Part shown: positions 19,290-41,893 of the stretch, piece by piece | How positions within the stretch are numbered: position 1 is the stretch's first letter | Layout: each line of letters begins with the position of its first letter | From: Isoetes taiwanensis | Taxonomy: Eukaryota; Streptophyta; Lycopodiopsida; Isoetales; Isoetaceae | DNA: 64,000 nt | Assembly: GCA_021234155.1 (NCBI GenBank) | Contig: JAJEKV010000091.1 | Location: 434,001-498,000 of the forward strand | Direction: 5' to 3' | Notes under the pieces: model-generated | What the model was told of the DNA's origin: nothing | Databases searched by the model: none | Seen by the model: only the letters and a program-made list of their open reading frames with translations | Made by a program: the position numbers and the translations under genes

Positions 19290-19321
19290 CTAAGGGCAAA
19301 AGTATGCTGGTGGGTATCAAA
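19290..19321 (+). repeat. Element B left target duplication and TIR
   Basis: CTAA 19290-19293, then the 28-bp TIR 19294-19321. It matches the right TIR at all 28 positions. A Cys/Ala-poor, AGCACC-rich stretch follows and then non-coding DNA to about 19560. Confidence 0.92.
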
Positions 19322-20591
19322 TAAACGCGGTTCAGCACCCAGCACCAGCACCCTTCATACTTTTTTTTCCACCCTTCATCAATTATAGTCTAACCTATTT
19401 TATGCCCGTCATTTCACATAGGCCGTACCCGTTCTAATCATAACCTGCTTACCGCCCACCGTTATTAATGAATGTGACCCGAAGGGTAGCGAATTTTGAA
19501 TTTGTAAATTGCAACCGTCTGTCTGTTCCCCAACTTTTGCTACTCCGGCCAAATAGCCCGCGGAGAAGAAGCTCGAGAATTTCCGCATTCACTCTAGTAT
19601 TCCAAAACTCAAACGCACTAAGGTGAAGAAGGTTGTTAATCCGCCGGCTCAGCCAGTAATTCCAACGGATGCCATGCGCAGGGTAAGCAAAATGCACTGC
19701 CAATTTTGATATGGGCTTACGGTGCCTTGTTAATTTGTTTTTCTTGCTTTCTTCCAGCCCAGAAGGAACGTGCCCCTAAGACCGGACCTGGCTGATTGCC
19801 GAACAGAGGAGGACTTCCATGCTTATGCGGGTCTACCAAACAAGGGTGTACATCCCTCTCAATTTCGAACGGATGTCATTTCTGCTGCAGAGTATAACGA
19901 GGTTTGGGATACCAATGGTGTCATTCCCAACAAAACATCAATTGACAAAGTAAGGCCAGAGCATGAAGAAGCTTTAATTGAACTGCTGAGCAAGATATAC
20001 CCAGAAGGGTTGAAGAATAGAGAAGTAAGGAAGACGATTTCCTATCTATTTGCATTCAACAACTGCCAGAGGGCCAAGCAGGATCCAGAAAATTTCAAGG
20101 TTAATTGGGCAGCAGTGGCAGCAAAAAGTAGGGCCTATTCGAGCAAGGTTAAGAGTGAACCCAGCACCAGCGGCCCTGTGAGCATAGCAGAGCCCAGCAA
20201 ATCACAGCAGACAACAACACCTGAAAGCATAGCAGAAAGGCCAGCCTCAGCAGGCACTGGTGTAAAATTAGAAGGGAGGTTGTCATTCAGGAGTACTGCA
20301 ATGTGCCCAGCAGCGTTCTCAGCTTATGGGGAAAATATTGCCCGCCTGGAAAGCATGATCCAAGGTATGCAGGATGCCCTAAAAATGCAACAGAGTGATC
20401 TAGTGTCCAAGAAGGAACTAGTTGCACAATCTCAGGCAAAGGGCACCTTCTTCTCGGTTGTAGAGGGGAAGTTGCAGACCATAAAGGACAATATTAATAA
20501 TAATAATAATTGATATTAACGTCTACGGGGGCCTAAGAAGGCCATGGGACAAAATTACATGTTTGCATATCACAGTGAAATTGTCTTTTCT

Positions 20592-20993
20592 TTAGATAGT
20601 CTCCCTCTTGTCTATGTTTTCCAAGAGTTCCTTTACAAATGCACTCACTCCACAAATTGTTGAAGGACAACCAAAGAAAACAGGTAAGGTTGAGCTCCAG
20701 TTCAAATGGGAAAACTGTGTCCTGAGGTTACTGTATTTTGGGCAGCGGAAGATCACATGTGCTTCATCTTCTATTTCTTGTAGATCGCATGTGCATAGGC
20801 GCTCTTCCCTTGGGATGCCTTGCCATCTACCTTTCTCAATTAGCAAGCGATGCGAACTCATACGGATTCTTGCAACAGCCCTAATCATGTTTGGGAACAG
20901 TTTAGGATGGCTCAGATACAATTGTATTCTATGTTCTCTGGTAGGATTGAAATCTGTGATGTAATATGTAACTTTATTTTTGTTGCCTAGCAT
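20592..20993 (-). pseudogene. LINE-1 C-terminal zinc-binding (zf-RVT-like) segment
   Basis: The frame ends at 20592 and reads RMSSHRLLIEKGRWQGIPRE, then a Cys/His cluster (CTCDLQEIEDEAHVIFRC). This matches the typical C-terminus of plant LINE ORF2 and the equivalent segment of the second LINE (53394-53576). It sits downstream of the RT and is separated from it by about 480 broken bases. Confidence 0.65.
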
Positions 20994-21474
20994 AACAAAC
21001 CTTTGGAAAGCCTATTGTCGGTACTGTTTATGGTGGTCCCTGCTAGTGAAGCCAAGTTTACAAAGCCATGCATTTAGCTCCTTAAACCAGTTTTTATCTC
21101 CCTTATCGCTCAGATGAATAGAGCTTTTAATCCTGAATGTACTAAGGTGGTTTTATCAGGTAGTTTTTGTACAAGAAATCCAATGTTATGTGCATTGCCA
21201 AGACTTCTAAGGGGCAGCAGCCTCTTTCAAAGAGCATAACCTCATAAGATGTATAGCGTTTAATGCCAAAAGACATATGCATGAATGCTTTTTATATGCT
21301 TTCTAGTTCTTGCCACTTGGATTTAGCAAGGGAGGGCCCCCAGATTTCACATGCGTATAGCATTACCGGAGTGACCAGTGCATCGAACAACTATTTTTTA
21401 AGAGGCCATGCGCAAATGCTTGCCCCGCTTACATTGGTTTACCATACCATAGAATGCTTTATAGGTCGCCGCTA

Positions 21475-23797
21475 TCACGACAGTCCCACGCCAGTGGTCC
21501 ATGGTCTCTGATTTGCATGTACTTCATGGCCTAGATATTTGTATGATTTCACCTGCTCAATAATCTGTCCATCATATGTTAGAGATGGGCCCCCCTTCCC
21601 GAAGCACATTACCTTTGTTTTGGACAGATTAACATAGAGGCCAAACTGTGAGCATAAATCTTTAAGCGTATCTAATTGCATTTGAAGGTCGTTTCTTCGA
21701 GTGGGCTGCTAGTAAGAGGTCGCCGAAGATATAGTAGCGTAATTATGAGATCATGATGAAGTTGGGAAAAGTTGCATCCTCGCTGCCTTGAGAAGGTCTT
21801 CAAGCTGGTCTATGTACAACCAGAATAGAGTGGGCGAGAGCGGGCAGCCTTGTTTAACTCCGGCGTCACCGATTATAGTCTCTGATAGTCCTGTTGGTGT
21901 GCTGATTTTGCCTCTTACTCTTTCATATAATCTGCCTATGCCTACAACCCATGCTTCTGGAACTCCAATTTGTTGGAGTCTGTTAATTAACAACTGGCGT
22001 GGGACTGTATCAAATGCTTTCGCAAAGTCTATGAAGCAGCAAAAAAGCTTCTTACCATGTGCTTTAGATTCTTCTACCAATGCTCGGAGAGTGAGAAGAT
22101 GATCTAGTGTGGAGTATTTGGGGCGGAATCCAGCTTGTCCATGAGCTCTAATGTTTTGTGCCTCAGCCCATGTGGAGAGTTTTGCATCAAAAATTTTTTC
22201 CAAACAGTTTTGCTAATACGGGGCTGATCATTAGAGTTCGATAATTACCTGGTTCATAGACATCTCCCTTCTTGTGGATGGGGTATATCAGGCTCGTGAT
22301 CCAAACATTTGGGAATCCATCAACAATGGCTTGATTGAACAAGTCGGTGATAACCGTTGCAAGTTCTTCCCCACCAGCTTTTATGTATTCTGCAATCAAA
22401 CCATCAATGTCACAAGCTTTTCCATTGGCCAGATCACTAATTCCCTTTTGCACTTCATCCACTTCTATGCAAAAATGTGTAGCATCAGTTGGTGGCAGGT
22501 CTAGTTTGTTCACTCCTTTAAAATAAAGGTGCATCGCATATGTTTTCCAGACATGGAGGTCAGTTAGGCAAAGTTGTTGCTTGGGTGGAGACAGGCCATG
22601 CCAAAAACTCTTGGGTTCTTTGCAGCAACTCATTGGCCGGTCTCGCTTGTTTATTTTGCTTCCATATCCGCTTCTTGGATCTGACCAAACGTCTATATGC
22701 TTTTAGACCAGTTGAAGTGTTTGCTATTTTCCTGGCTTCTTTAAGTTCTTTATCATACCAACCATTCCTGGGTTGTGTAGCAGCAGCAGAGCGTCTGGGG
22801 CCATAGATGTTATATGCACTATTCACCAGCAACCTGTTGAGAGCCAATGCTCTTGCATTTATGCTGGTATGCTGCAGAATGGTGGGCAGCCCTTCTTTAA
22901 TGCGTTCATAAAATCCTTCATCCTTGGCAGCATTGTATCTTGGTTTCCTGAAAATAGTGTTTTGCTTGGCTTCCCTACAAGCCTCAATAGCAAAGCGAGA
23001 GCGGTGCATGGTCCGATTAAACTGAAAGTCTTTTATATTGAGATCCTTGATCAATCCAAAACTTTCTCGGCGAGCCCGCTAAATAGTCTATAGTTGAGTA
23101 TGTGAAATGATTCTCGGTTTAAGCCTCGAAAGTGTAGCCAAATGAATGCCATGGTCATATGCCATTGTAGATGATCATATCAAGTGAGGAAAGGAAGTTT
23201 AGAACCCATTGTCCAGCTTGATTGACTTCTTGATGCAGGCTTGTTCAGAAAATATCTCTCTCCCATTGTTCACTTAATAAGCTACTTGGTTCACCGCTAC
23301 AAAAACTTGCACCTTTGTTTGAAGATTTCCGTCCAGCCATTTAAGTCCCTATGATCAAGACATCACGCCTTGTTTCCATCTGTTAATCGCGTAACCCAAG
23401 TCAAGGCAAATGTCCCAAGATGGTGATAAACCCGAGGCGGATATATAGCAACCTATAATGATCAGATCTTTATTTCCATTAATCGGGGATGCTTTTATTC
23501 AACCGCCACATCTTGTTTATCTTCTTCATCCATGTGTTCAAGCCGTAATTCTTTGCCAAATTTGTTTGTGATAAAACAGGCTACTCCGCCATGTGGTCTA
23601 CCTCTTTTGGGTTTTGGGTGCCATACTGAGCCTAACTGATACATTTCAAAACTTGACATCCTGGCGCACTGATGCTCCCAAGTTTCAAGCAAAAATAAAA
23701 TGTCTACTTCCCCGTTTCTTAACCAGCCATCTTTGGTTGTACTCCTTTTCGGTCCTTTTGTGTTCCAAAGAAGATACGAGACTACTGGCGGGGCCAA
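21475..23797 (-). pseudogene. LINE-1 ORF2: endonuclease and reverse transcriptase
   Basis: The endonuclease part (23495-23797) includes LLWNTKGPKRS and DILFLLETWE. The RT begins near 23054 (linker) and 22633 and includes CFIDFAKAFDTVPRQLL and GVKQGCPLSPTLFWLYIDQL (21820-22120). A thumb-like NLSKTKVMCFGKGG lies near 21600. The catalytic YADD position near 21735 reads IFGDL with a frame change, and most of the endonuclease between about 23100 and 23490 is missing or broken. It is therefore inactive. Confidence 0.75.
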
Positions 23798-23900
23798 TGG
23801 TGTTGCTCAAGCCTGCCCTGGATTCCCTATGCGGCCTTGTCTCTAATTATGACTTGGCCATTTCTGTATATTGCCCATTTGCCATCTGCTCTAGCTTCTT

Positions 23901-24494
23901 TCACTTTGCGTAGAGCCTCTGGCCGGTCCGGGAGTTGCTTTGCCATGTTAAGTCTTCACATATTTTGAAGGCCGTTCCTTTGAGATTAGGGCCACTCTTG
24001 AGCAGCTCCGTCCTTGCCGATTCATCACGGCATTTAACCAGTATATGTCGTGTTTTTCCCTCAAGTTTTCTTCCAGTCCTCCATGCATCCTGTATGACGT
24101 TTGTATCTGCTTTAAGCTCTTCTGCGCAGAAGTTTGATGCTACAGTTTTGGCATCTTCATCATCGATTTCTGGGATACCGATGAGTCTAACCCTTGTCAT
24201 TCTTTTCTGTTTTTCACGCTCTTCTGATAGGACTGATTGCACTTCTTGTTTAATATTATTTTCCGTCACTGTTATGGCCTGGGTATCTTGTTGCTTTTCC
24301 AGAATCTCTATTCTTGCAGTTAGTGCTTCTACTGTATCCTGCAACTGTGCAACTCGGTCCAGAAGAGTGCGAACCTGTATTACCTCCTCGTGTATAGCAT
24401 CTATCCTGCTGACAGATTTCATCAGGGATTCCCAGGCGACGGCCGTGATCTGGAACTCCTCATCATTTTGGGTCTTTTTCTTACTCGTACCCAT
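23901..24494 (-). CDS. LINE-1 ORF1-like RNA-binding protein
   Basis: An uninterrupted 197-residue frame starts with an ATG (MGTSKKK). It contains a coiled coil over about residues 25-95 (VRTLLDRVAQLQDTVEAL). A segment matching the RRM-like core of L1 ORF1p follows: RVRLIGIPEIDDEDAKTV, then VIQDAWRTGRKLEGKTRHI and ARTELLKSG. ORF1p trimerises and coats LINE RNA. It may be shortened at its C-terminus (ends RTGQRLYAK). It is the best-preserved LINE frame in the window, but its partner ORF2 is dead. Confidence 0.6.
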   Translation of the reverse strand: MGTSKKKTQNDEEFQITAVAWESLMKSVSRIDAIHEEVIQVRTLLDRVAQLQDTVEALTARIEILEKQQDTQAITVTENNIKQEVQSVLSEEREKQKRMTRVRLIGIPEIDDEDAKTVASNFCAEELKADTNVIQDAWRTGRKLEGKTRHILVKCRDESARTELLKSGPNLKGTAFKICEDLTWQSNSRTGQRLYAK

Positions 24495-24839
24495 CTCCGG
24501 CTGTCGCTTTAAATATAGCCTTTTCTTACTCGTACCCTATCACCACGTCCTGCATTGTCTTCAAGCATTGTCAGATCCTAATGCAGGTGCCTCTGCTGGG
24601 ATTCATTCTTTGGAGAGGGAGAAAGATATGGCATAGTATATGCTGAAGTCCCTCCTTGAAATGGAGGGTGGGCCAACAGATGAAACCATGGTACAAAAGG
24701 TGGCTGCACTAACTGCTGAGATTGCCAACAATGAGTCCCTCCTTGCAAAAGCCCAGCAGCACTTACAGAATGTCACCAGGCTGAGGGAGATGACCAAGAG
24801 AAATGATCAGCTGGTCAGCATCACTCCAATACCATTCCG

Positions 24840-25000
24840 ATTGCCAATTGGAGATGAGGAGAGATGCTCCATCTGTGGTCTTGCATTCCAGGATGATTAC
24901 ACCCTCAGCCTGCGTATGAAATGTGGACATCATTATCATGTGAGCTGCCTCAGTTTGCTCATGGAAAAAACATGCTGCCTCGAGTGCTCAGAGACTATTC
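24840..25000 (+). other. RING-type zinc finger in the cargo gene
   Basis: The segment from 24865 reads CSICGLAF, then KCGHHYHVSC, then CCLEC. This gives C-x2-C, C-x-H-x2-H-x2-C and a final C-x2-C, the ligand spacing of a RING-H2 finger with a slightly short last loop. It follows about 70 residues of predicted coiled coil (24640-24840). In host proteins RING fingers recruit E2 ubiquitin-conjugating enzymes. Activity here is only inferred, but all eight expected ligands are present, so this segment has not decayed at its key positions. Confidence 0.7.
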
Positions 25001-26282
25001 CTACAGGGTTAGTGCAGGAATTGGGGAAGCTTAATACAGTAAATCAGGAAGTGTTATATGCTGGAGCATCTCACAAAACCGAGAATAAGATGATTGATGT
25101 TGATGAGCATGTAGCCACAACTCTTGATAGCAACAGGAAAAGGAAACAAGTCAATACACCAAGAAGTAAAAGGACCCCAGGATCAGCTAAGCACAAGTCT
25201 ACAAGGGTGAAAACTCCACAGCCAAGACATGGAAAAAAAGGTACATGCCTGTTTTTAGGGTCTCAATTTGAATTGGCAACATTAGAAGATGCTGTAGACA
25301 TTGGACAGCAAATTACCAGCAGTCTGCAGCACACTGCAGCACCTGGCAGCACAGTGCTGAAGACACCAACCCATGCAGAATCTAAGGGGGATTCAAGTAG
25401 TACTGATAGTGCTACCAATTATCACATAGTTCCAAATTCTGCAGCTGCCTCTACAAAGGCCTCCTCTAACACGGTTGCTGCAGGGAAGGAGAACGATGGC
25501 GAAGATGTCGACAAGCAAGTTCATGCAGTCGTTTCCAAGGTCAACAAGTTGACACGGTCAAGGACGAGGAAGGTTGTGGAAGAAGAGAGTGAGGGTGAGT
25601 CGGAAGTTGATCTTGATGAAGACGTCCCTATAGAAGTAGCATTTGGAAAAAAAAATAAGGCTAATGTAATCTTTCCATATGTATTTCAGGCAGGCAAACC
25701 TTGATTGCTCAAGACAACCCTAAACCATCAGCCAAAAGGTTTTTGTTTTAACAATTAATATATTCTGTTTTATTTCACCTTGAATGTGCAAATTTTAGTT
25801 TGGATAATTCATTCAACTTAGGCTTGAGTAAAAACTTGTCTGTAGGAAAAGAAGGCAGCCAATGGTTATACTTAGTGAATCTGATGAAGAAGACAATATA
25901 GATAAAGGAGTGCCAGCACAACCTCTAACATACAAAAGGTGCCTGTTATCCTGTTATATTTCAGAATGTGTATTCTCTACAAATTTCAGTTGGTAATTGG
26001 AGCACATCCTTGCATGCAGGAGAACAAGGCAGGTTGTGAATGATGAAATGGAGGATAAAGCACGAAAGGCCACTGCAAGGGTTACTGATAGCCAAGAAAC
26101 ACCAATACATTGGGGGCAGGGAGATACTAATACAAATGTATCTGACTCAGCACTCTCCATCATCTGGTAGCAAAGCTAAAGCAGAGTCCAGCAGATCGCA
26201 GCAATGTCCAGCACGCTCGATAGCACTTCCCAGCACAGCATGGTAGCAGAGTCCAACACATGTCGCAGCACAGTCCAGCACA

Positions 26283-26897
26283 ATGCAGTACACATCGACA
26301 GTAGGTGCAAACGTTGAGGGATGGGAACCCAGACAGAAGTTGATGGTGCTTGACATAAATGGTGTACTGGCACAGACACAACAGAGGAGAATGGGTCACA
26401 AAATCTTGCCTCCACCTCTAACGAACCATGTTGTAAAAGAAACTGCAAGTAAGTACCTCATTTGCAGACCAGGGTATCATGAGTTTGTGGAGTGGGCACT
26501 GCAGAGGTTTGATATTGTGATCTGGAGTGCTTCTCTACTTCGGAATACAAGGGATATGGTGGATGCATTGTTCCCAGATTTGCGGACCAAATTCTTGAAG
26601 GTATATGGTCAAGATCAGTGCTATGCATGCGAGCATCCAACCAGCATAGCAAAGCAACTTTTTTTCAAGGAGTTGAAGGTTGTACTTGAGGATTTTCCTG
26701 AATATCATGGTATGATTTTCTTGGTAGATGACAGCCTACACAAAGGGTTTCTAAACCCTGCATGCACAACCGTTCCTGTTATGCCTTTCAAGGGGCAGCT
26801 TGAGGACAACTTTTTGCAAAAGTTTGTGTGTCCAGCATTGGATTACTTGTCTTCCTCATACAGTAGAAGAAACAATCTCACAGCTAGGCATCACTGA
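26283..26897 (+). pseudogene. FCP1/NIF-like HAD phosphatase domain
   Basis: The open segment holds HAD-superfamily landmarks in order. LMVLDINGVLAQT comes first (nucleophile Asp at about residue 24 of the segment; the second Asp of DxDx is Asn). Then come YHEFVEWALQRFDIVIWSAS, a FWDQ-equivalent YGQDQC, KELKVVLEDFPEY and FLVDDSLHKGFLNP. This is the arrangement of FCP1/SCP-type (NLI-interacting factor) domains that dephosphorylate Ser/Thr, classically on the RNA polymerase II CTD. A DxNG version is, from memory, common in a plant subfamily, so the Asn need not be a mutation. The stop at 26895 may be a late frameshift, as similar text continues in another frame to about 26990. Linkage to the RING part is by position only. 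Confidence 0.65.
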
Positions 26898-28649
26898 TGC
26901 ATGGTTGCAAAGGAGACAGTTGATGTGCTGGATTATTGTCTCAACAACTATCTTGTCTCAGCCAATTATATCCTCAATGCTCCAGAAGAGGTATAAAGGC
27001 AGTTGCTGGGCACCATTCCTGACGACTCTAACCACTCTGAAAACTTCAATGACTCATGAAAATACCATTGTACACTACCCTTTTGTAATATATATATATG
27101 ACTTACTTTATGTAATCTTGAGTATTGATTCCAAGTAATGTCTCTAATACAACATAAAAATTCCAGATAAAGGTCTTCAAAATTTAAGACAAAGGTCTTC
27201 AAAATTTAGATAAATACTGAAATGATGAAACAACTATGTCAAACTTCATATGGTAGACTGTCAAGGATCATCTGATGGATAGCCCCGTCAAGGGAAAACC
27301 TGTTGGTGTCGGGAATTTGATTCATCTCAAACTTGATTGCTGTGACATGATGACTGTATTGATACCTTTGTTTTGAAGCAGCTCCCAACTACCATCGGGT
27401 TGGATAGCATAGTATACACCAGCCAGCATATGTTCATCGACATTAAAGGTCTGACCCCAATTGTAGTGTACAATCTTGTCAAGAACATGCCTCGGCTTAA
27501 CGCACTTCACCACATAGAAGTCTGCATTCTCTTGATTGTCCTCCTCGGCTACAACTGCAAAGTTTGTCACCTTCCTCTATGTTTCCACTAAGCCACTCCC
27601 CATCACCTTCAAAAAATGCCTCGTCAATTTCATCATCAGGTGTTTCGCCAGTAGACTTCATAGGCTTTAGTGTCACATACTTCCAATTCTTCAACCTGTG
27701 CCTATTCACACAACATGACCAGTTTCCATTCAAACAATTACTACAGAAACAACTTAAACCTCTATGAGCCACCCTTGTGGTCGATTTGGACATGTATGTC
27801 CGGATGCTGTGTATTTCCTTGGTCCTTTCCACCCTGGCATAGTCCAGCCGGTCAGTCCTATCAACATCATCCTTTCCAATTAACCAGAAGTACCTGCAAA
27901 GAGACAGCAACAAGTATTGCGGCTCACAGGCAACATAATACAGCACTACTCACACACTGACCCCAATTTTTGGTCCACAGTTGTTTTTTTGTTGTACGGA
28001 AGTGTTGTTTTATGCCAAAAACAACACCAAAATGGCCCCAAAAGTCCACGTGGCCCGTTTATCCGGATTTGCACAAAGAGACAGTGGTTTTTTGGCAAAA
28101 AATTCCACGGTGGTTTTTCTGGCACTTTTTTGTTTTTTTGTCAACGTGTCCTTTTTTTCAGTGTTGTTTTTACCGAACTTTTTCGACGTGTGATTTTTTT
28201 CTTGACTGTTGTTTTTTTTAGGAGCCACGTGTTGTTTTTCCTTAAAATAAGACACGTAGATTTAAATATTGCTATACGTGAAAGACTAACTTACAACAAT
28301 GGTTTTTAAAAAAACCACATGTTATTTACAAAAGAATCGACCGCGTGTTATTGAAATCTATCTATTGTTTTTAGTGCTATTAAGTATTGTTTTTGTAAAA
28401 TAAGGACATGTAAAAGAGCATTATAATAACATATAGAAAAAACAAGGTGTTGTTTCTAATTGCCTTTTAGCTAATGAAATACTGACACGTAGTATACTTT
28501 TTAAATAAAAAAAAGTTATTTTAACTAATCGAATATTAACACGTGGCATATATTTTTAAATAAAGAATTACTATTATGACATATAGAAAAACCATTGATG
28601 TTTCTAACATATCTTCTAACCAATCAAATATTGCCACATGGCATAGATT

Positions 28650-30560
28650 AAAATAATAATATATACTACAATTTAAAAATCAATATGATTGTATTTAAAA
28701 TAAGAAAGCTTGTGGGAATCTAGTGGATCATTAAGTTTAACTGCTTCTTTGATAAATCATTATATGCAAATAAATACATGCCATTAAAACCATTGGAAGG
28801 AAAAGATGTTCATAATTTACAGCAGATAATTTACAGCAGAATCGAGAATTGGAAAAGAAAAATACTGATAAAAAATTGTAGACTAAAACCATGAAGTTGG
28901 ATATATTTTTTTCGTAAAGGCAAGTATTTGCTTAATACAATGCAGACTGCAACTAGTCTGATATTAGATTCAAATGAATCAATTTGGAACTACCTCTTCC
29001 ACATACTCCACTCTTATATCAAGATACAAAATTTGAATTTGAGAACAGACAATTTCACCTGGTCATGTAGTGAGGAATCTCCTGCTTGCCATAGTTTGGT
29101 TTGCGATGATCGATACCCCTTCTTCTTAGAAGGTTACGCAAAATCTACGATTCGAATCAACCGACAAACTTCATGCGGCAAAACCGCCCTTTAGGCCTTT
29201 CGAAATTGTTCTCAAACTTTGCAAAGTCGCCCCTATTGCACTGTTTGCTTGCCACCGGTAGGATCGCCTCCTGCTTGAATTAACCCTCGCCATGGCAACC
29301 TCCTTGCCTCCTCATCTGCGATGCAAAATGCTTTAGCATGCCCTAAAACAAGATGCTCGGTCCGAAAAACCTACGTCTTTGGTGACTTCATTCGATTTCC
29401 ATCTCTCAAGATTTCGTGAAGAACACAACAGATTGGGCTATTGTTGTGATCGGGGAGGATGTGATTCCTTCGCAACAAGAACCGCATGCAAACCGTATGA
29501 TCATCCGTTCTTCTTCAATGCTAAATCGCCACGCTTTATATCCGAACAAAGATAATTTGTCCACCGGTTATAAAAAGAAAACAAGAAGAACAAAGAAGAA
29601 AAGTAAAGAGTTAGAAGTAAAACCTAGCCCCCGCCCTTGCAAATCCGGCCAGCCTTGCCCTTGCAAATCCAGCCCCCGCCAAAATTAAAAATCGAAAAGC
29701 AACAAAACAAAAACGTAAAAAGTGTAACCCGCTAGCAAAGAATCGGGGACTACTGAAGGATCCTCGGATCCGCTTGTCATGCCGATGATGACGCCCTTGA
29801 CTCTCTTTCTCGATCCCAAGATTTGTAATGGGAACACCGGATTTGCCATATCCAAGAAGGAAAAGAAGGAAAATAGCCCAAGGAAAAGAAGGCTTGAAGG
29901 AAAAAAGAGGTTTCCATAGCCTAAGGAGCGATGTTAGCACATGCCGATCTCTTTGTGATCCTGGATTTGTAATGAGGACGCTGGATTTGCCATATCCAAG
30001 AACAAGCAAGGCCACTAAGGCCAGCCCTTGCCCTTGCCCTCGCCATCGCCATCGCCATCACTAAGGAAAAGAAGGTCGCCATAGCCGGAAGGAAAAGAGG
30101 TCGCCATAGCCGGGAAGGAAGGATAAGGCCGGAAGGAAAGGTGCGCGCACGACCCAAAGCGGGAAGGTCGACAACCAATAGGATGATACTACGAGGATCA
30201 CAATCCAAACCGCTTCATCGGCGCCAAATCTCGTCCCCGCTTCATCTCGGCAAAAAAAAACCTATACTACAATTTATTTTCGACGTTGTAGTTAGGTATA
30301 ATGACCCCCAATGAATATTAGTTGGGGACATTTTCCACTTTGGGGAGGGGTCTTCCTTCAACATAGCATCCACCGCCATAGCTTCCACCTTCATAGCTCC
30401 GGTGCCGTCTATACACCCTTCGATGTTGCCATAGCTTGGCGACATATAGAAAGGCAGGCCAAACAGGCGTTGTCGCCCGCCAGAGCTCTGTTTTGAATAA
30501 AGTCCGTCCACCATAGCCAGAGCTTGGGATTAAACAGCGTCCGTCGCGAAGGGTATTTCT
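28650..30560. other. Non-coding or decayed DNA inside element C
   Basis: I see no convincing gene. Short duplications occur: a GGATTTGCCATATCCAAGAA unit at about 29840 and about 29985, CCTTGCAAATCC units near 29635-29690, and CATCGC/TCGCCATAGCCGG runs at about 30040-30115. The style of the text resembles the decayed minus-strand gene of element A. A relationship is possible but not shown. Confidence 0.3.
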
Positions 30561-30599
30561 TGCAATCTCCATGAAATGAGTGGAGAAAATTGAAATTTG

Positions 30600-31070
30600 C
30601 GAAAGTTGACATGCACATGATGATGTGGCATGCCATTGGTGATATGTCATACCAAGCAAGCAAGATAAACTTCTGACTAGGCCAAAAATATAAAAATGTG
30701 CAACTTTGGTTTCCCATGGGGTGATGTGGCAAATTTTTATGGCAAGATATGGGTGATGTGGACATGATGATGACTATGCAAGCTTTTGGGCATGTTTGTC
30801 TCCGTCTCGATGCAAAAAATGTAGGGTTCACATTATGGGATGCTTCCCTTGCCACAAGTGGTTAGGATTTTACAGCGCATGAACAAATAGCATGGAAAAG
30901 ATGATGTGGCACTCTAAGTGTGATATGGCATGCCAAGTAAGCAATTTCAAGTTTTTGACTAGGCCAAAAATGAAAAGATATCGAACTTTTCATTTGATGA
31001 TGTTGGCAAATTTTGGGTGACATGGCAAGATGGTGGTGACGTGGACATTTAATAGAATGAAATTCCATTT
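30600..31070. repeat. ATGATGTGGCA-type diverged repeats
   Basis: Two related blocks (about 30600-30790 and 30890-31055) share GATGATGTGGCA, TGACTAGGCCAAAAAT and TGATGTGGCAAATTTT words. An inverted relative lies at about 36715-36850 beside the right satellite array. 31070-31320 holds nothing recognisable. Confidence 0.5.
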
Positions 31071-31322
31071 TCCCTGTTGTGGTTACATGGACGACTCGTG
31101 AACAGTGGGTTGTTGAATCTCGTGAGTCCAGATTGAGGGCTTCTAATTCCGCAACATTTCAAACAGACTAGAAGGTTATGTACATGTCCAATAATACAGG
31201 CGCCTACACAAGGCAAACTTGTGGACCATGATATATGATCAATCCTTGGTCCTTTGTACTTCTAGAAATATTCTCTAGATAACCATTGAAACATTCTTTA
31301 CAAAGTCAAGTCTACAAACCCA

Positions 31323-32085
31323 TAATGCTCAACATGCCAATATGGCTCAAAACACGCCACCTAAGCTCCAACATGCCACCTAGGCTTCAACATGACAAGG
31401 TGGCTCAACCATGCCACGTGGGCTCCAACGTGCCAAGGTGTCTCAAACATGCCACCTAGGCTCCATCATTCCAAGGGTGCTCAAACATGCCACCTAGGCT
31501 TTAACATGCCAAGGTGGCTCAAACATGCCACCTAGGCTCCAACATGCCAAGGTGGCTCAACCATGCCATGTGGGCTCCAACGTGCCAAGGTGGCTCAAAC
31601 ATGCCACCTAGGCTCCAACGTGCCAAGGTGGCTCAAACAAGCCACCTGGGCTCCACCATGCCACGTGGGCTCCACCATGCCAAGGTGGCTCAAACATGCC
31701 ATGTGGGCTCCAACATGCCACCTAGGCTCCAACATGCCAAGGTGGCTCAATCATGCCATGCATGAGGCTCAAACATGCCACCTAGGATCCAACATGCCAA
31801 GGTGGCTCAAACATGCCATGTGGGCTCCATCGTGCCACCTAGACTCCAACATGAGGCTCAAACATGCCATGTGGGCTCCAACATGCTACTTAAGCTCCAA
31901 CATGCCAAGGTGGCTCAAACATGCCACCAAGGTGGCTCCAACATGCCAAGGTGATGCCACCTAGGCACGAACATTCCGCCTAGGCTCAAACATGCCAAGG
32001 TGGCTCCAACATGCCACCTAGGCTCCAACATGCCACCTAGGCTCCAACATGCCAAGGTGGCTCAAACATGCCATGTGGGCATGAT
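31323..32085 (+). repeat. 19-bp satellite array, left (forward)
   Basis: About 40 tandem units alternate between CATGCCACCTAGGCTCCAA and CATGCCAAGGTGGCTCAAA, with CATGTGGGCTCCAA variants. The two unit types make a 38-bp higher-order step. Long open frames within the array follow from the repeat periodicity (three units are 57 bases) and are not evidence of a protein. Confidence 0.9.
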
Positions 32086-32134
32086 GACTAGGACTTCATG
32101 CAAGAAATATAATAACCTTTGGAATTTTTGGTAG

Positions 32135-33790
32135 AGGCGTTTTGTCGTTCGGGCAGTACAAAGGCTCCGGAATGGAGATTCGACTTCGCCATGCCATCCG
32201 GAACGGCGAAATTACCCTAGGGACCAAGTTACACGGGCATTTTTTGCAACGAAATAAACACGAACCCTCTACATGGCAGTATTCTGCAGCCACGTCTTAG
32301 ACCAATTGACTACGAACATGTTGGATATGAGCTACTTTGGCGCTTGTTGGAAAAGGGGCAGTCTTCTGCCCACGAAACTTGGTCTCCAGGGTAATGTCAA
32401 CGTTTTGAGTCCATTGGCAGAGTCAGTTCACAGTTCTGAAGTGGAAAAGTTGCCCGTCCGTGGCCACGGTTCTTCCAGAGAGGACCTTTGAGGCGAACTG
32501 CTTCCGGAAGGTTTTAAAGGTCCGTCTTCTGGCGTCAACACCCTCCCTCTACGTGATGACATTATGCAAGATCCTGGTCGAATCTGACTAGGATATAGCC
32601 TCCGAAACGTAAACCCTGTGTGTTGCTAGGTTATTGAAGGGTTTACGTTATGGGGGTCGATGTGGTGGGTGGAGTCATACGAGAACCCAATAACTACTAG
32701 CATGTGTATCTGAGGCGTAAGAAAAGCAGGAGAGCACCCCAGAATGCACAAGAAATCATCCACACAAGATACCAGAAGAAGGCAGCACCAAAACCGAAGG
32801 AAGGACGTCAGATGCAATCACATCCACGCAACACACTCGACTGAAGTGAACCCACAAACCAAGAAGCCTATGCACGGACAGAGAGGAACATCAGACACCA
32901 AGCAGGCATCCATGCAACACACCGAGCATAGCGGACAGAGGGGAGGGGAGAGACAGCACCACTCGGGAGAGGGTTACAAGAAGGCATGACAATCCAAGCT
33001 CTACCACCTCACACGGGTTCCTAAAGCATCCAAACAAACCAAACCTCAGATGCTAGAAGGGCGAAGAATATAATCATACTCTCCACCAAATCGAACCCCA
33101 ATGGTCCCTATGCTCCTCCCCCGCAGGGGGAAGAGCTGGAGAGGAGGGACCCACCCCTAAAGGGCTAGAAGACCAAGCCCCAACCAAAGGTTGAGGCCAC
33201 TAGCCCCCAACCTCCCTTAAGGAGGGAAGGGGGACTCATGAAAGGGCAATCTAGCAGAGCCAGAATCTGACTAGGATGTAGCCAGGTCGGAGTTTTAGTC
33301 GGTTTATGTTTCGGAGGCTACATCCTAGTCAGATTCGACCAGGATCTTGCACAATGTCATCACGTAGAGGGAGGGTGTTGACGCCAGAAGACGGACCTTT
33401 AAAACCTTCCGGAAGCAGTTCGCCTCAAAGGTCCTCTCTGGAAGAACCGTGGCCACGGACGGGCAACTTTCCCACTCCAGAACTGTGAACTGACTCTGCC
33501 AATGGACTCAAAACGTTGACATTACCCTGGAGACCAAGTTTCGTGGGCAGAAGACTGCCCCTTTTCCAACAAGCGCCAAAGTAGCTCATATCCAACATGT
33601 TCGTAGTCAATTGGTCTAAGAGGTGGCTACAGAATACTGCCATGTAGAGGGTTCGTGTTTTTTTCGTTGCAAAAAATGACTGTGTAACTTGGTCCCTAGG
33701 GTAATTTTGTCGTTCCGGATGGCATGGCGAAGTCGAATTATCATTCCGGAGCCTTTGTACTGCCCGAACGACAAAACACTTGGGTGTCTA
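32135..33790. repeat. R1 copies in inverted orientation with 0.6-kb loop
   Basis: 32135-32650 is R1 in plus orientation. 33265-33790 is nearly its reverse complement, sharing for example GACCAATTGACTACGAACATG and TTGCCCGTCCGTGGCCACGG on opposite strands. The loop, 32651-33264, has no recognisable gene. Similarity between the arms looks very high, which suggests recent formation or gene conversion. Confidence 0.8.
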
Positions 33791-33794
33791 CACG

Positions 33795-34600
33795 GTCGAC
33801 CGCAGGGGGATTCGACCCCATCTCCGGGCATGGTCCCCAGAGCATACACAGAGAACTCCATGCAAAGTTTCGGATGTGTGAGTCTCCGTCTTGACGCTCG
33901 AGATGTAAACCCTAGCAAACCCTAGGGTTTGATAGGGTTTACATTCTGGGGATGCTCCGATGACCCAGAGGGCCCAGGATCTGACGTGGAATACCCGTGC
34001 TGGATTACCCTAATGGCACTGGGAGACAGAGCCAAATTTCCCGGTGCAGCATACCTTTCGGAGACTCCCCTTCACAAGCCCCTTTCCAGTGAAGGGGAGT
34101 CTAGAAAAGCATGCTGCGCAGGGGGATTCGACCCCATCTCCGGGCATGGTCCCCAGAGCATACACAGAGAACTCCATGCAAAGTTTCGGATGTGTGAGTC
34201 TCCGTCTTGACGCTCGAGATGTAAACCCTAGCAAACCCTAGGGTTTGATAGGGTTTACATTCTCGATGTCCGGCGACCCGTAGGGCCCGTGATCCGACGT
34301 GGAATACCCGTCTTTGGATTACCCTCATGGCACCGGGAGACAGAGCCAAATTTCCCCGGCAAGATACCTTTTGAGACTCCCTTCACAAGCCCCTTTCCAA
34401 AGAAGGGGAGTTCGAAAGCATGTCTCTTGGGGGATTTGACCCCATCTCCGGCATGGTCCCCGAGAGCATACACACAGAGAACTCCATGCAAAGTTTCGGA
34501 TGTGTTAGTCTCCGTCTTGACGCTCGAGATGTAAACCCTACCAAACCCTAGGGTTTGGTAGGATTTACATTCTGGGGATGCTCCTCTGATCAAGAGGGTC
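33795..34600. repeat. About 312-bp tandem repeat with AAACCCTA palindromes
   Basis: About 2.6 units of 310-316 bp. Each contains a 38-bp near-perfect palindrome built from AAACCCTA/TAGGGTTT at 33905-33942, 34221-34258 and 34531-34568. Other shared landmarks are GACCCCATCTCCGG and GACGCTCGAGATG. Confidence 0.85.
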
Positions 34601-36630
34601 GTGGAACTTGTCCCCTAGGGTAATTTCGGCATTCCAGATGACATGGAGAGGTCGGATCGCCAATCCGGGGCCTCCTCCATGCCCCAAAATAAAAAACGTG
34701 GTCTAAACCCTGTCAGGGCCAACGGTGGCCATCCCAATCAAAAATCGAGGGTCTAAAGCTCACCCGGAAATACCAGGGATTTTCCTGTACGCTCGGGGCC
34801 ACTTGGCAAGCCAGCTGGCTGAAAACCATGATTTTTCCCCGCCCCATGCATTAATCATGAATTTCCGGATCATAAACACAAAGAAAAGCACGATATAAAA
34901 ATCCGGTCTCAAAAAGGTGAAATCTTGGCGGGATGTGCGATGACGCCGCACACGCAAGAGAAAATGCACCGGCAATAGAAGCACAAGCGAGCAGGCATGA
35001 GACGAAGCTTAGAGCCAACCCCCTTCCGGAGGCCACCGGGTCGGTAACGTCCTACTGGGCAGTGGAGCTAGCTTTGCTTCTCCGTGGTCACATGTATACC
35101 ACCTAGCAGTCCTAGTGCTGCTATTCTCACTTCGATCTTCTACCCGGGGCCTCGGGGTGACCCCAAGTATCTTGTTCTCGCAGCTAGTCCAAGTCCAAGG
35201 GGTGAGGGCCGGGCCGGACCCCCACTCCAAATCCGAGAACTGGCTCTCGCCAATGGACCCTAACATCCCCATTACCTAGAGACCAAGTTTCGGTAGGCGT
35301 AAGACCACCCCTCTCCAAGAAACGCCAAAGTAGGTCGCTTTACTACACACTTGTAGTCAATTGGCATGGAGGTGGATGCCAATACCTCCTAGTGGGGGTA
35401 AGTGATTGATCCCCCGGGAAAACCGGGTAGTGGAACTTGTCCTCTAGGGTAATTTCGCGCCCGGGACGATGTGGAGAGGTCGGATCGCCAACCGGGCCTC
35501 CTCCATGCCCCAAAATCGAAAAACGGTGGTCAAAACCACCGCCACCCAACGGTGGCCATCCCAATCAAAAATCGAGGGTCTAAAGCTCGCCTCAAAATAC
35601 CGGGGATTTTCCTGTACGCCAAGGCCACTTGGCAAGCCAGCTGGCTGAAAATCAGGATTTTTCCCCGCCCATGCATTAATTATGAATTTCCGAGCATAAA
35701 CACAAAAAAACACGATAAAAATCCGGGTCTCAAAAAGGTGAAATCTTGGCGGGATATGCAACATGACGCTGCACACGCAAGAGAAAATGCACCGACAATA
35801 GAAGCACAAGCAGAGGCATGAGACGAAGCTTCGAGCCAACCCCCTTCGGAGGCCACCGGCCTGTGAACGGCCTCATGAAAGCAAAGGGAGCTAGCTTTGC
35901 TTCTCCGTGGTCACATGTATACCACCTAGCAGTCCTAGTGCTCCTATTGTCACTTCAATCTTCTACCGTGGCCTCGTGGTGAACCCCAAGTATCTTGTTC
36001 TTCTTGCAGCTAATCCAAGCCGGGGGGGAGGGCTGGCTGGACCCCCACTCCCGAATCGAACTGGCTCCGCCAATGGACCCGGAACATCCCCATTACCTAG
36101 GGGACCAAGTTTAGGTGGGCAGAAGACCACCCCTCTCCAAGAAACGCCAAAGTAGGTCGCTTACTACACACTTGTAGTCAATTGGCATGGAGGTGGATGC
36201 CAATACCTCCTAGTGAGGGGTAAGTGATTGATCCCCGGGAAAACTCGCCGTGGAACTTGTCCCCTAGGGTAATTTCTCACCGCTCCGGACGACGCCGCAG
36301 CGAGGTCGGATCGCCAATCCGGGGCCTCCTCCATGCCCCAAAATCGTAAACGTGGTCTAAACCCCCCACAAGGCCAACGGTGGCCATCCCAATCAAAAAT
36401 CGAGGGTCTAAAACTCATCCGAAATACCGGGATTTTCCTATACTCTCGGGGCCACTTTGGCAAGCCAGCTGGCTGAAAACCAGGATTTTCCCCGCCCCAT
36501 GCATTAATTATGAATTTCCTGAGCATAAACACAAAGAAAAGCACGATAAAAATCCGGGTCTCAAAAAGGTGAAATCTTAGCGGGATGTGCAAAGATGACG
36601 CTGCATACGCAAGAGAAAATGCACCAGCAT
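34601..36630. repeat. About 825-bp tandem repeat, 2.5 copies
   Basis: Units start with GTGGAACTTGTC at 34601, 35430 and 36250, 829 and 820 bp apart; the third is cut at about 36630. Each unit includes a minus-oriented R1 segment (about 35220-35400, 36050-36230) and AT-rich text with CATGCATTAAT. No coding function is seen. Confidence 0.85.
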
Positions 36631-36847
36631 ATATACCTTTCGGAGACTCCCTTCACAAGAAAGGGGCAGCCGTCGAGGTGCTGCCTCGCCTCCTGTTTGC
36701 GGACATCCAAGGTCCATGTCACCATCATCTAGCCATGTCACCTAAAATTTGCCAACATCACCCATCGAAAAAACCAAAGATGGACATCTTTGGTTTTTGG
36801 CCTAGTCAAAACTTGACCTTGCTTACTTGGCATGCCATGTCACCACT

Positions 36848-38394
36848 TGGGGTGCCTAGGTGGCATGCTTGAGACTAGGTGGCATGCCCGAGCCACCTTG
36901 GCATGTTGGAGCCTGCATGGCATGTTGGAGCCACCTTGGCATGTTTGAGCCTAGGTGGCATGTTTGAGCCACCTTGGCATGTTGGAGCCCACGTGGCATT
37001 ATAGAGTCCACGTGGCATGTTTGAGCCACCTTGGCATGTTGGAGCCTAGGTGGCATGTTTGAGCCCACCTTGGCATGTTTGAGCCTGGGTGGCATGTTGG
37101 AGCCTAGATGGCATGTTTGAGCCACCTAGGAATGTTGGAGCCTAGGTGGCATGTTGGAGCCCACGTGGCATATTTGAGCCACCTTGGCAAGTTGAAGCAT
37201 AGGTGGAATGTTGGGCCCGCGGGCATGTTTGAGCACGTTGGAGCCTAGGTGGCATGTTTGAGCCATTTTGTCATGTTGCAGCCTAGGTGGCATGTTTGAG
37301 CCACCTTGGCATGTTTGAGCCTAGGTGGCATGTTGGAGCCACCTTGGCATGTGGGAACCACCTTGGCATGTTTGAGCCTAGGTGGCATGTTTGAGCCACC
37401 TTGGCATGTTCATGTTTGAGCCACCTTGGCATGTTTGAGCACGTTGGAGCCTAGGTGGCATGTTTGAGCCACCTTGGCATGTTGGAGCCACCTTGGCATG
37501 TTGGAGCCTAGGTGGCATGTTGAGACCACGTGGCATGTTTGAGCCACCTTGCCTTGTTAGAGCCTAGGTGGCATGTTGGAGCCTGTGTGGCATGCTTGAG
37601 CCACCTTGGCATGTTGGAGCCCACGTGGCATATTTGAGCCACCTTGGCAAGTTGGAGCATAGGTGGCATGTTAGAGCCCGCGTGGCATGTTTGAGCATGT
37701 TGGAGCCTAGGTGGCATGTTGGAGCCACCTTGGCACGTGGCATGTTGGAGCCCACGTGGCATGTTTGAGCCTAGGTGGCATGTTGGAGCCTAGGTGGCAT
37801 GTTTGAGCCAACTTGGCATATTTAAGCCTAGGTGGCATGTTGTGAGCCACCTTGGCATGTTGGAGGCTAGGTGGCATGGTGGAGCCCACGTGGCATGTTT
37901 GAGCCACCTTGGCATGTTTGAGCCTAGGTGGCATGTTGGAGCCTAGGTGGCATGTTTGAGCCCACCTTGGCATGTTTGAGCCACCTGGCATGTTTGAGCC
38001 TAGGTGGCATGTTGGGAGCCTAGGTGGCATGTTTGAGCCACCTTGGCATGTTTGAGCCTAGGTGGCATGTTGGAGCCACCTTGGCATGTTGGAGCCTAAG
38101 TGAGCCTGCATGGCATGTTTGAGCCTATGTGGCATGTTTGAGCCACCTAGGAATGTTGGAGCCTAGGTGGCATGTTGGAGCCCACGTGGCATATTTGAGC
38201 CACCTTGGCAAGTTGGAGCATAGGTGGCATGTTGGAGCCTGCGTGGCATGTTTGAGCACGTTGGAGCCTAGGTGGCATGTTTAAGCCATTTTGTCATGTT
38301 GGAGCCTAGGTGGCATGTTGGAGCCACCTTGGCATGTTTGAGCCTAGGTGGCATGTTAGAGCCACCTTGGCATGTTGGTGCCCACGTTATGCAA
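36848..38394 (-). repeat. 19-bp satellite array, right (inverted)
   Basis: The same 19-bp family on the opposite strand: TTTGAGCCACCTTGGCATG and TTGGAGCCTAGGTGGCATG, about 80 units with some higher-order blocks (for example 37120-37260 and 38150-38290 are near-copies). With the left array it forms a pair of inverted satellite arms 4.8 kb apart. Confidence 0.9.
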
Positions 38395-41300
38395 AAATAG
38401 GTGTTAAGTAATTGAAGTAGTTGAAGTAACTTGTGTTACATGGAATACTAGTATAAGAACATGTGATCGTGCACGTGCATCACATGTAGCAAATCAAGTA
38501 CTCTGTCCTACCACTATAAAGACCCGTGATATGGAAGGATAGGACATGTAGAGAATCAAGTACTCTTTCCTACTTCTATAAAGACATGTGAGAATAGAAG
38601 TATTACACATGTCGTAATTCATGTATTCTTTCCTACAATGCCTTAGCAAATAAAGTACTCTGTCCTACTACTATAAAGACATGTGAATGGAAGTATAGGA
38701 CATGTAGAGAATCAAATATTCTTTCCTACATCTATAAAGACATGTGACAATAGAATTATTAGACATGTAGAAATTCAAGTACTCTTTCCTACAGTGGATT
38801 GTATTATAAAATGACATGTCACAATAGAAGAAACTACAAAACAACAGTGGATGTTTTAGTCCACTGAAAAAAGAACACCATTATCGAACAAAACCATACC
38901 TTCACAAATCCACATGTAGGATTCTTTGAAAACAGGACATGTAGACCTACCAAAACTGATGTTTTCAACAGTGGACCAAAAACCGGGGTGAGTGTGTCAT
39001 CACATTACATCAGTTCACAGACAGCACTATTCAGCATATTACAGCACTACTCAGCACAGTACAGCAGTTCACAGACAGCATTACTCAACAGAATACAGCA
39101 GATGAAATCATAATACCTTTTGATGTCCCCGTTGTTGGTACCTTCATTCCAACGAGTTGCGAATTCACAGACATCAGCAGCACCCCTAAATCTCACCCCA
39201 TCATACTTGATCTGTTCTCTAGTGAATGCCCCTTTAAGGACTGCCCCTTGTCCATCATGCTCTCCCTTACCATGGGCTGTCCCAAAGAAATTCCATATTA
39301 TTTCCTTCTCTAGCTCATGGTGATATCTTGGTAGGAAATAGAATGGCCGGGCAGATTTGAATTGGCTAGAACAACCATCTGACCAAACTATATGCCTGGA
39401 GAATTCTACACCATTTGATACAAGCCATGAATTGTGCTTTCTAAGACAGTGCTGCACAAAAAGAGTGTCATGAATCTTGTCATCACTTAAGTAAAAATGG
39501 GTTTCCTTCTATAGCTTTCTGATCCCAGAGTTTTTATCTATCCTACACGTGATGTAGACGAGAATTGTTATCTGGTCATTGCCAGTGCTGGCTTTGAACC
39601 TCCCTTTGTATTTTTATGCTGTAATTCTCTGCAAAACCAATTACAGAAACAACAGTGTTATTTTGGATATTGTCCAGGCAACTCCTGAATTGCAAGGCCT
39701 GCCATCTAGCCCTGTAATTGTGTGGCACAAATATCTTCAATGTGGAACACAGATAGGAAATGAAATCCTTCACTGCCGTTCTCTTGTAAAACAATCTAAG
39801 AACTGGCTTTAGTTCTTTCTTTTTTTTCCCATTGCCAGTTGAGGTCCCGTCTTGTGCTGCACTTTCAGACTGTGTCCCACCAACTACCTTGGATTTCTTA
39901 CTTTTGTTTCCCTTCTTGGTCGCATTGGATCTTTTCTTTCTGCTGCCACCTGGTACTTCCTTGATAACGCAGTCTGCAACTCCACCAGCTTCTTCTGTCT
40001 CCACTGGAATCTGTAGCAAGGTCTGTAGGATAAAACAGAAGATTAGTGCAAGTTGAAAGCACAAAAGCAGTATTCAACGGATGACAGCACATCTCAGATG
40101 TTGCAGCATGCAATCTTTTCAAACATTTTCCATTCAATCAAGAACTCATGATCCTCTCTTTCTCTTGGACATATAGGAAGACTTTTTATGCCACACTTCT
40201 GACATTTCTGCATCAAGCAGTCATGTTTATACCATTCTTCACCCTCGCTCTTGTTGCAAACCACAGCCCTCCAGAGCTCGCTGCTTGAGTCATACGTATG
40301 TTGGCTGGCCAGACACTTCTCACCAGGTCCACAGACCTCACAACAGCACTTGCACTCTTCACCATGAAATCCAGTTTTCGCTGACCTTAAAGCATTCAGG
40401 CCTACCCTGGCATACTCCAACTTCATATTGTATATGCAACAACAGGTTTTCCTTTCTGATACTTTAAATAGGCTTCAACTTCTCGAAAGCCTTTAAGCAA
40501 ATAGGGTGTTTAGGATGTGCCTTTTTGTATTGTTGAAAAAGCTGCAGCTGAATGGTGGCCTTTGGTTAGAAATATTTATGCAAGAATAGCAAGGAGCTCT
40601 TGTATGGAAACTTATACCTGTGTGACCTCCATAAGGTGGAAGCCTGACTCTCCAACAGTGTTCACAACATCTTTCTTGCAAGGAGAGACTCTGCTATTTT
40701 GTTTCTAAAATTCTGTACTATGCTATGCTTGCAAGGAGGGGTGAGAGAATCGCACCTCAACCTCCTTTGGAAGCAAGACCACGGACCATATCCAAGGACG
40801 GCTTCCAATTTTCTTAATGCAGCAGTTGCAATTGTTGTCCTTTTGGAACCTATCATAAGAAATATTGCACATTATTCAATGAACATGTCCCAGCCAGCAG
40901 CACTCAGCAGATACAAGCACCTTCAGACATAAAGAAACACAGACTTGATTTCGTGTACTCAACAGATACAAGCACTTAAAAGCATAAAGAAGCACATGCA
41001 TGAAAGCAAGAATTAGATGTACCTAACAGCCCTGCCATAGTGGAATTGCATCTCGATTTTGTGGAAGAAGCCATCACCAGTGTCGAGGTTCTGGCTCTCC
41101 AAATATCATGGTTCCTTTGCCTCTTTGTGGCTACCATTGTCTATTTCAAGTTGTTGAGCAGCACCCCGCTGCCTTGCACTCCTTTGGATTTGGCAAAATT
41201 CCAGGTTCTGAGATTTCCATTTCGTGGTGATGAACCACCCTCTTCATCACATCGGTCTTGAGTTGGGGTGAATGCTTTTTGGTGAGCTTGTTGAAGTAAT

Positions 41301-41840
41301 CAACTACAGCTTGGCAATTTCTTGCCTGCGTCTCATGCTCAGATCTTCCCGTTCAACCGCTGCTTTTCTCATCTTATTCCGTAATCTGTATTCTCTCTTT
41401 CTTTCTGCATCCAATTTCTTATAAATTGCAGAGGACACTGGATCACGCGATATTTCCTGTGTTGCATTGACATCCAACAAATTTGGAACACTGTATTGGA
41501 ATTCATCAGGCCGAAAATCCAATGCTCAACGTGTGATTGCCTCCAGGCCGGTATCAGGGAGCGCCATGAAATTCTTGAGAGAGGGAGAATAAGTGAATTG
41601 GAGGGAGAATTCTCGCGGGCCATGAGATCAAAGTAGTTCTGGGCTCGATCGAATTTGCAACGTACAACCACTCGCACGAAAATCCAGCCAAAATCCCACA
41701 ATCATTTTCCTAACGGTTCATTGCTGAGGTGGATTGTGAGTACATGAAGGGCGTGAAAAAAATGACGGGCAGTTACACCCACCAGCATCCAAATTAAGCA
41801 AAAGCAGGGGTGCTTTAAGTGGGCTAAAACCCTGCTATAA

Positions 41841-41893
41841 GCATGCGTCCGGACGCATGCTTTTGATACCCACCAGCATACTTTTGCCCCTAA
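41841..41893 (-). repeat. Element B right TIR, adjacent 20-bp palindrome
   Basis: The TIR 41862-41889 is followed by the CTAA duplication 41890-41893. Immediately inside lies a perfect 20-bp palindrome, GCATGCGTCCGGACGCATGC at 41841-41860. No counterpart is seen beside the left TIR. A partial TIR-like CACCAGCAT also occurs near 41780. The palindrome may be a transposase-binding or end-specific structure (inference). Confidence 0.9.

Follow-up and report, generated by a model that had tools for sequence, protein, structure and literature searches.

A two-gene DNA transposon lineage of Isoetes taiwanensis whose second gene combines RING-H2 and FCP1-like domains

We analysed a 64,000-nucleotide stretch of the Isoetes taiwanensis genome (the window; contig JAJEKV010000091.1, positions 434,001 to 498,000 of the forward strand, assembly GCA_021234155.1), in which a DNA transposon with an unusual second gene had been proposed. 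Between two terminal inverted repeats (TIRs) lie a transposase gene on the minus strand (gene 1) and, converging with it, a second gene (gene 2) with an N-terminal domain (ORFA), a coiled coil, a RING-H2 finger, a basic linker and an FCP1-like HAD domain, in this order (Table 1). The TIRs are identical at 28/28 positions and are the only two matches to this sequence within the window; 28-bp TIR pairing was seen in 0/100 shuffles of the window. The element begins with GGG, and CTAA flanks it on both sides as a 4-bp target-site duplication (TSD). The proposed boundaries of the element therefore stand.

The original prediction gave the element a size of 22.6 kb. This is correct for the span from TIR to TIR (22,596 bp), but it is inflated by two nested insertions, and we rejected the idea of a giant element. 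A long interspersed nuclear element (LINE) splits the coiled coil of gene 2, one query matching both of its flanks, so that gene 2 starts upstream of the LINE with ORFA and the first coiled-coil part. A CACTA-like element sits inside the transposase gene. Stripped of the two, the element measures about 7.5 kb, close to three other copies described below (7.4, 8.3 and 8.5 kb; a fourth has 10.2 kb). What we see in the window is probably a cut-and-paste DNA transposon with two genes that has decayed and been invaded twice. Its transposase is very probably dead, because Gly replaces the first catalytic Asp and because the gene has an in-frame stop and frame changes. As for the insertions themselves, a TSD of at least 7 bp was sought around the LINE and none was found; its 3' end seemingly carries an (ATT)n tail. 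The CACTA-like element is full of degenerate 19-bp tandem repeats, whose orientation towards one end is opposite to that towards the other, and its middle holds a 477-bp inverted repeat (97%).

Table 1. Features of the transposon in the window (positions are those of the window; ORF, open reading frame)
Feature	Position	Strand	Remark
TSD CTAA, left	19290..19293	.	4 bp
TIR, left	19294..19321	+	28 bp; many genome matches
Gene 2, N-terminal domain ORFA, family unknown	19758..20174	+	matches in other copies and in the second family
Gene 2, coiled coil (by eye), first part	20280..20489	+	in L011 a single ORF covers both parts
Nested LINE (ORF1 and reverse transcriptase)	20508..24558, edges approximate	-	RVT_1 in ORF 21751-22212; interrupts the coiled-coil match
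Gene 2, coiled coil (by eye), second part	24559..24663	+	query match
Gene 2, RING-H2 finger and basic linker	24760..25239	+	zf-RING_2 22.4 bits, cut-off 27.3; 8 ligands
Gene 2, FCP1/NIF-type HAD domain, motif I DINGV (DxN)	26304..26894	+	PF03031 E 8.3e-19
Transposase, C-terminal exon	27376..27892	-	match in two frames
Nested CACTA-like element, CACACT...AGTGTG, 11,044 bp	27953..38996	.	TSD TCA at 27950-27952 and 38997-38999
Transposase, second and third catalytic motifs (WSDG, HGKGEHDG)	39143..39508	-	homology
Transposase, first catalytic motif, GFAENY (family DFAENY)	39585..40004	-	homology
Transposase, cysteine-rich region	40112..40420	-	homology
Transposase, N-terminal exon, in-frame stop	41307..41567	-	homology
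TIR, right	41862..41889	-	28 bp
TSD CTAA, right	41890..41893	.	4 bp

In the protein database the transposase matches 56 homologues (E<=1e-3), one of which adopts an RNase H/DDE fold in a predicted structure. On this model gene 1 is a DDE/D-type transposase, as had been proposed.

The reading frames of gene 2 continue from one module into the next, from which we infer a single protein. ORFA has no Pfam match, but it recurs in other copies (L011, C907, L047, L049, L050, L051 and L060). The domains had been named as coiled coil, RING-H2 and FCP1/NIF-type, and these names hold with different firmness. The NIF match is strong (68.3 bits against a cut-off of 21.8); the RING finger of the window (L017) falls below the Pfam cut-off but has all eight zinc ligands (C3H2C3), and the coiled coil was recognised by eye. 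The HAD domain is like the FCP1/SCP (NIF, PF03031) phosphatases by profile match, and differs from them in being joined with a RING and a coiled coil and in its motif I. The catalytic motif of FCP1/SCP phosphatases is DxDx(T/V). In gene 2 this motif is not present: motif I reads DIN, with Asn in place of the second Asp, in 31/31 rows of the FCP search, and the Asn is also found in four further copies (in L050, one of these, the first Asp is lost as well) and in a second family (L062). Most copies keep the first Asp, and likewise the DD motif and the WSAS motif with its serine. Because of the Asn, the label 'phosphatase' is doubtful. A PDB sequence search with the FCP domain gave no match, and a single-sequence fold prediction of it was not used (predicted local distance difference test score 34). 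An exact-word-dependent search with the FCP part alone, which is weak evidence, found no homologues outside the own genome (E<=1, 209 candidates).

We searched the assembly of the same species (1,658,258,908 bp in 1110 contigs) for other copies. The TIR, with up to 3 mismatches, has 766 forward and 789 reverse matches, and a reversed control has 0. At most of the TIR loci that we read lies a short element, 251 bp or about 930 bp long, with neither gene; such elements have only 57-62 bp per end in common with the long elements (one of each kind compared). The 251-bp elements, L012 and L014 included, are miniature inverted-repeat transposable elements (MITEs) whose similarity to the long element is confined to the ends; the end sequences of L012 and L014 are identical, which suggests recent spread. 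Every distinct element with both ends recognised (20/20, from three read sets of 11, 1 and 8) is flanked by identical 4-bp sequences, and these vary from element to element. Five bounded members carry genes: the window element, L011 (8,488 bp), C907 (10,243 bp), C1039:4279759-4288099 (8,341 bp) and L060 (7,394 bp). All five (5/5) have both genes, converging, although the transposase of C907 has an internal deletion. The full copies read thus share the TIRs, both genes and the 4-bp duplications. L011 and C907 were picked by TIR spacing alone, C1039 by its FCP match, and L060 after cargo had been seen beside its TIR.

A genome search with the FCP exon, in which 150 matches were scored of 4652 candidates, gave the best thirty loci (one being the window), kept with 1.5-kb flanks. 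Among the other 29 loci, the transposase C exon was found in 25 and the RING in 23, in the expected orientation wherever found; L023 has neither. We also read ten TIR-bearing stretches; in two of them (C39 and C32) coding sequence next to the TIR was already known, and the other eight had not been seen before. They comprise six 251-bp elements, one of 935 bp, a single end without genes (L058), the full two-gene L060 (from C32) and a partial copy, L054 (from C39).

The same pair of genes was found in a second, diverged family. Its element, C344:15281-22638 (in stretch L062, extended by L064), has 7,358 bp, a 29-bp TIR and the duplication AAGT, and gene 2 converges on the transposase in the same gene order. 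The transposase is 48 and 41% identical to that of the first family in two pieces of the cysteine-rich region, 41% at the first motif, 52% in the core and 34% in the C part (with stops). For gene 2 the values are 40% in the FCP domain, 34% in the RING (with all eight ligands) and 32% in ORFA (E 6e-13). The first catalytic Asp, Gly in the window, is kept in L011, C1039 and L062. The TIRs of the two families align better than shuffled ones, of which 0.2% of 2000 reached the score. This copy is also broken, and a MITE of the first family is inserted in its gene 2. By eye, a CGTCCGGACG palindrome lies just inside one TIR in both families (L062:2262-2310; window 41830-41865). As the pairing of gene 1 and gene 2 is the same in both, the sequences indicate that it is older than the split between the families.

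We further estimated the ratio of nonsynonymous to synonymous divergence (omega, dN/dS) in gene 2. For the FCP exon, C1039 (L051) compared with eight chosen copies gave dS 0.72-0.96, dN 0.13-0.15 and omega 0.14-0.19, the upper bootstrap limit being at most 0.33. For the RING, omega was 0.21-0.25 in six pairs (dS about 0.7) and 0.34 in one pair at dS 0.19. For ORFA it was 0.06-0.28 in pairs with dS above 0.1, apart from one 65-codon pair (0.39). Between diverged copies the ratio is thus below 1, and the comparison indicates that gene 2 is under purifying selection. Ratios for shared (0.31-0.41) and private (0.64-0.86) variants were not relied on, because frameshifted pieces inflate the private changes.

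Since the pairing recurs, since the second family has it and since the cargo dN/dS is mostly 0.06-0.28, we conclude that the RING/FCP1 protein is the transposon's own, as had been suggested, and is not a random capture; very likely, gene 2 is a functional component encoded by the element. A number of observations weigh against this conclusion. In L054 we found the N-terminal, cysteine-rich and first-motif parts of the transposase, with neither the core nor cargo within the 9 kb read; this may be a copy without gene 2, or a truncated or an interrupted one. Many copies are broken, and only 14 of 31 RING matches (the window and 13 others, from 37 loci queried, with two loci counted twice) retain all eight ligands. 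Close pairs (dS below 0.07) gave omega values of 0.55-0.83, which are little informative, and the within-family mean for the FCP exon was 0.47, with 4/450 pairs reaching 1 or more; dN is raised within the family by neutral decay of inserted copies and lowered by the choice of the FCP sample as the top loci by protein similarity. Homologues of gene 2 outside the own genome were not found (E<=1e-3, 3986 candidates), the search again being exact-word-dependent and weak as evidence. The biochemical role of gene 2 is argued from its domains. The distances of the modules are also poorly correlated (Mantel): for FCP and RING r was 0.05, or 0.11 (p 0.08) without C1039, and for FCP and transposase it was 0.01 with C1039. 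The latter value is 0.33 (p 0.0004) without C1039, and that for RING and transposase is 0.28 (p 0.01). Recombination among copies or a skewed sample, or the two together, could account for the poor correlation. Separately, the RING exons of L011 and L048 differ by dS 0.68, while FCP exons of the 31-row sample average about 0.10; mosaic copies, gene conversion or skewed sampling possibly underlie this contrast.

The outer element has the multi-copy TIRs, the fixed-length 4-bp TSD and the RNase H-like DDE/D transposase of a cut-and-paste TIR transposon. CACTA/EnSpm elements are marked by CACT(A/G) termini and a 3-bp duplication, which the outer element, with its GGG start and 4-bp TSD, does not have. 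Mutator elements and Mutator-like elements (MULEs), VANDAL included, have a TSD of about 8-10 bp, and the duplications here are of 4 bp. A table in PMC6446971 lists 9-10 bp for Mutator/MULE. Pfam searches with 50 transposase homologues gave weak matches only: DUF4326 in 5/50 (best 6.7e-4), DUF6597 in 2 (best 2.4e-4) and six other families in one each. A PDB sequence search with the transposase profile returned one non-significant row, and Foldseek alone returned no row at or below 1e-3. In viral contigs, 87 pattern stretches for transposase relatives were seen and none was confirmed; the TIR was not found there. Elsewhere in the window, the ORF at 12631-13119 (+) matches DUF7869 (PF25273, E 1.1e-13), as does, weakly, 1/50 of the transposase homologues (E 0.043), and it is perhaps another transposase remnant. 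A SLAC1-type anion channel gene (PF03595, E 2.2e-30) lies at 56712-57644 (-).

Other explanations of the locus were also evaluated. The window copy on its own, broken and nested as it is, would leave room for a chance assembly, with an unrelated gene beside a transposon and fortuitous inverted repeats. Against this stand the 1555 TIR matches (0 in the control) and the five bounded two-gene members; we rejected it, and its probability is negligible. Gene 2 could also be a direct cofactor of transposition, acting in end binding, synapsis or RING-driven turnover of the transposase, and not in anti-silencing. The constant pairing and the conserved N-terminal domain adjoining the coiled coil speak for such a cofactor, and the arrangement of the two genes, convergent between TIRs, resembles that of MuDR. 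However, we know of no precedent for a HAD domain in a transposition cofactor, and nothing tested separates the cofactor from an anti-silencing factor; we consider the cofactor somewhat unlikely.

The FCP1-like domain may alternatively be an active phosphatase despite its DxN motif, directed at the carboxy-terminal domain (CTD) of RNA polymerase or at a silencing factor, in line with the CTD-directed control suggested at the outset. The residues kept in most copies (first Asp, WSAS and DD) would favour activity, but the Asp that is replaced in all 31 rows, the four further copies and the second family is the general acid/base in SCP-type enzymes, and an active enzyme seems quite improbable. 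A single capture of gene 2 from the host, followed by passive carriage, would be in keeping with the wide occurrence of the NIF domain among eukaryotes. Gene capture by plant transposons is likewise well described (PMC13317346). Nevertheless, gene 2 is present in two families that differ in their TIRs and whose proteins are 32-52% identical, and this, together with omega well below 1 in diverged comparisons, disfavours passive capture, which we regard as highly improbable.

When we compared the element with known systems, close parallels included plant DNA transposons with an extra, long-conserved protein of their own. VANDAL elements encode VANC, a demonstrated sequence-specific anti-silencing protein (PMC10398659), and in KIU elements VANC carries an Ulp1 domain (PMC10398659; PMC13317346; PMC6446971). 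KIU is alike in that a captured domain of a ubiquitin-like pathway is joined to the extra protein; that domain is a protease, while gene 2 has a RING and an FCP1-like domain. VANDAL elements are described as non-TIR MULEs, unlike the elements here with TIRs and 4-bp duplications, and anti-silencing has been demonstrated for VANC, whereas for gene 2 it is proposed. Fungal DNA transposons that encode a TET/JBP dioxygenase also pair their transposase with an enzyme that acts on marks of chromatin or DNA and is thought to counter silencing (PMC12730594). There, a different enzyme of one type occurs across many superfamilies; here, one architecture occurs in one transposase lineage of one genome. 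Sola elements, such as Sola2 with Fanzor1, are described as having TIRs, 4-bp duplications and a transposase with a second protein (PMC3627910), as the elements here do; the Sola2 duplications are AT-rich, and ours vary in sequence. No report of a transposon with RING and FCP1 was seen among the papers listed from the open literature, subscription journals and Repbase reports lying outside this scope, and the accessible part of a review of plant gene capture (PMC13317346) contains no occurrence of FCP1, phosphatase or RING.

We propose that the gene 2 protein would be an accessory factor for expression or transposition of the element. It would attach to element DNA or to the transposase through its N-terminal domain and coiled coil, the RING may recruit an E2 enzyme for ubiquitylation of a chromatin or transcription target, and the HAD domain, without the usual second Asp, may act mainly as a reader of phospho-peptides, possibly of the polymerase CTD. 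The outcome would be escape of the element from silencing, as VANC achieves for VANDAL elements. Anti-silencing or expression control is our leading guess for its role, at somewhat less than even odds; that the whole route runs exactly as drawn here is improbable. It is also rather unlikely that we are dealing with an ancient lineage that reprograms host transcription or silencing by a self-encoded ubiquitin ligase and phospho-reader, for example by binding phosphorylated polymerase tails. If true, the RING/phospho-reader protein would be a class of self-encoded anti-silencing factor distinct from VANC and TET/JBP. How transposons escape silencing is an open question in plants outside the flowering plants. 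A conserved RING and FCP1-like helper, in two diverged families, one of which has more than 1500 TIR matches, offers a concrete candidate for anti-silencing, and several bounded two-gene elements are at hand for testing the helper idea.

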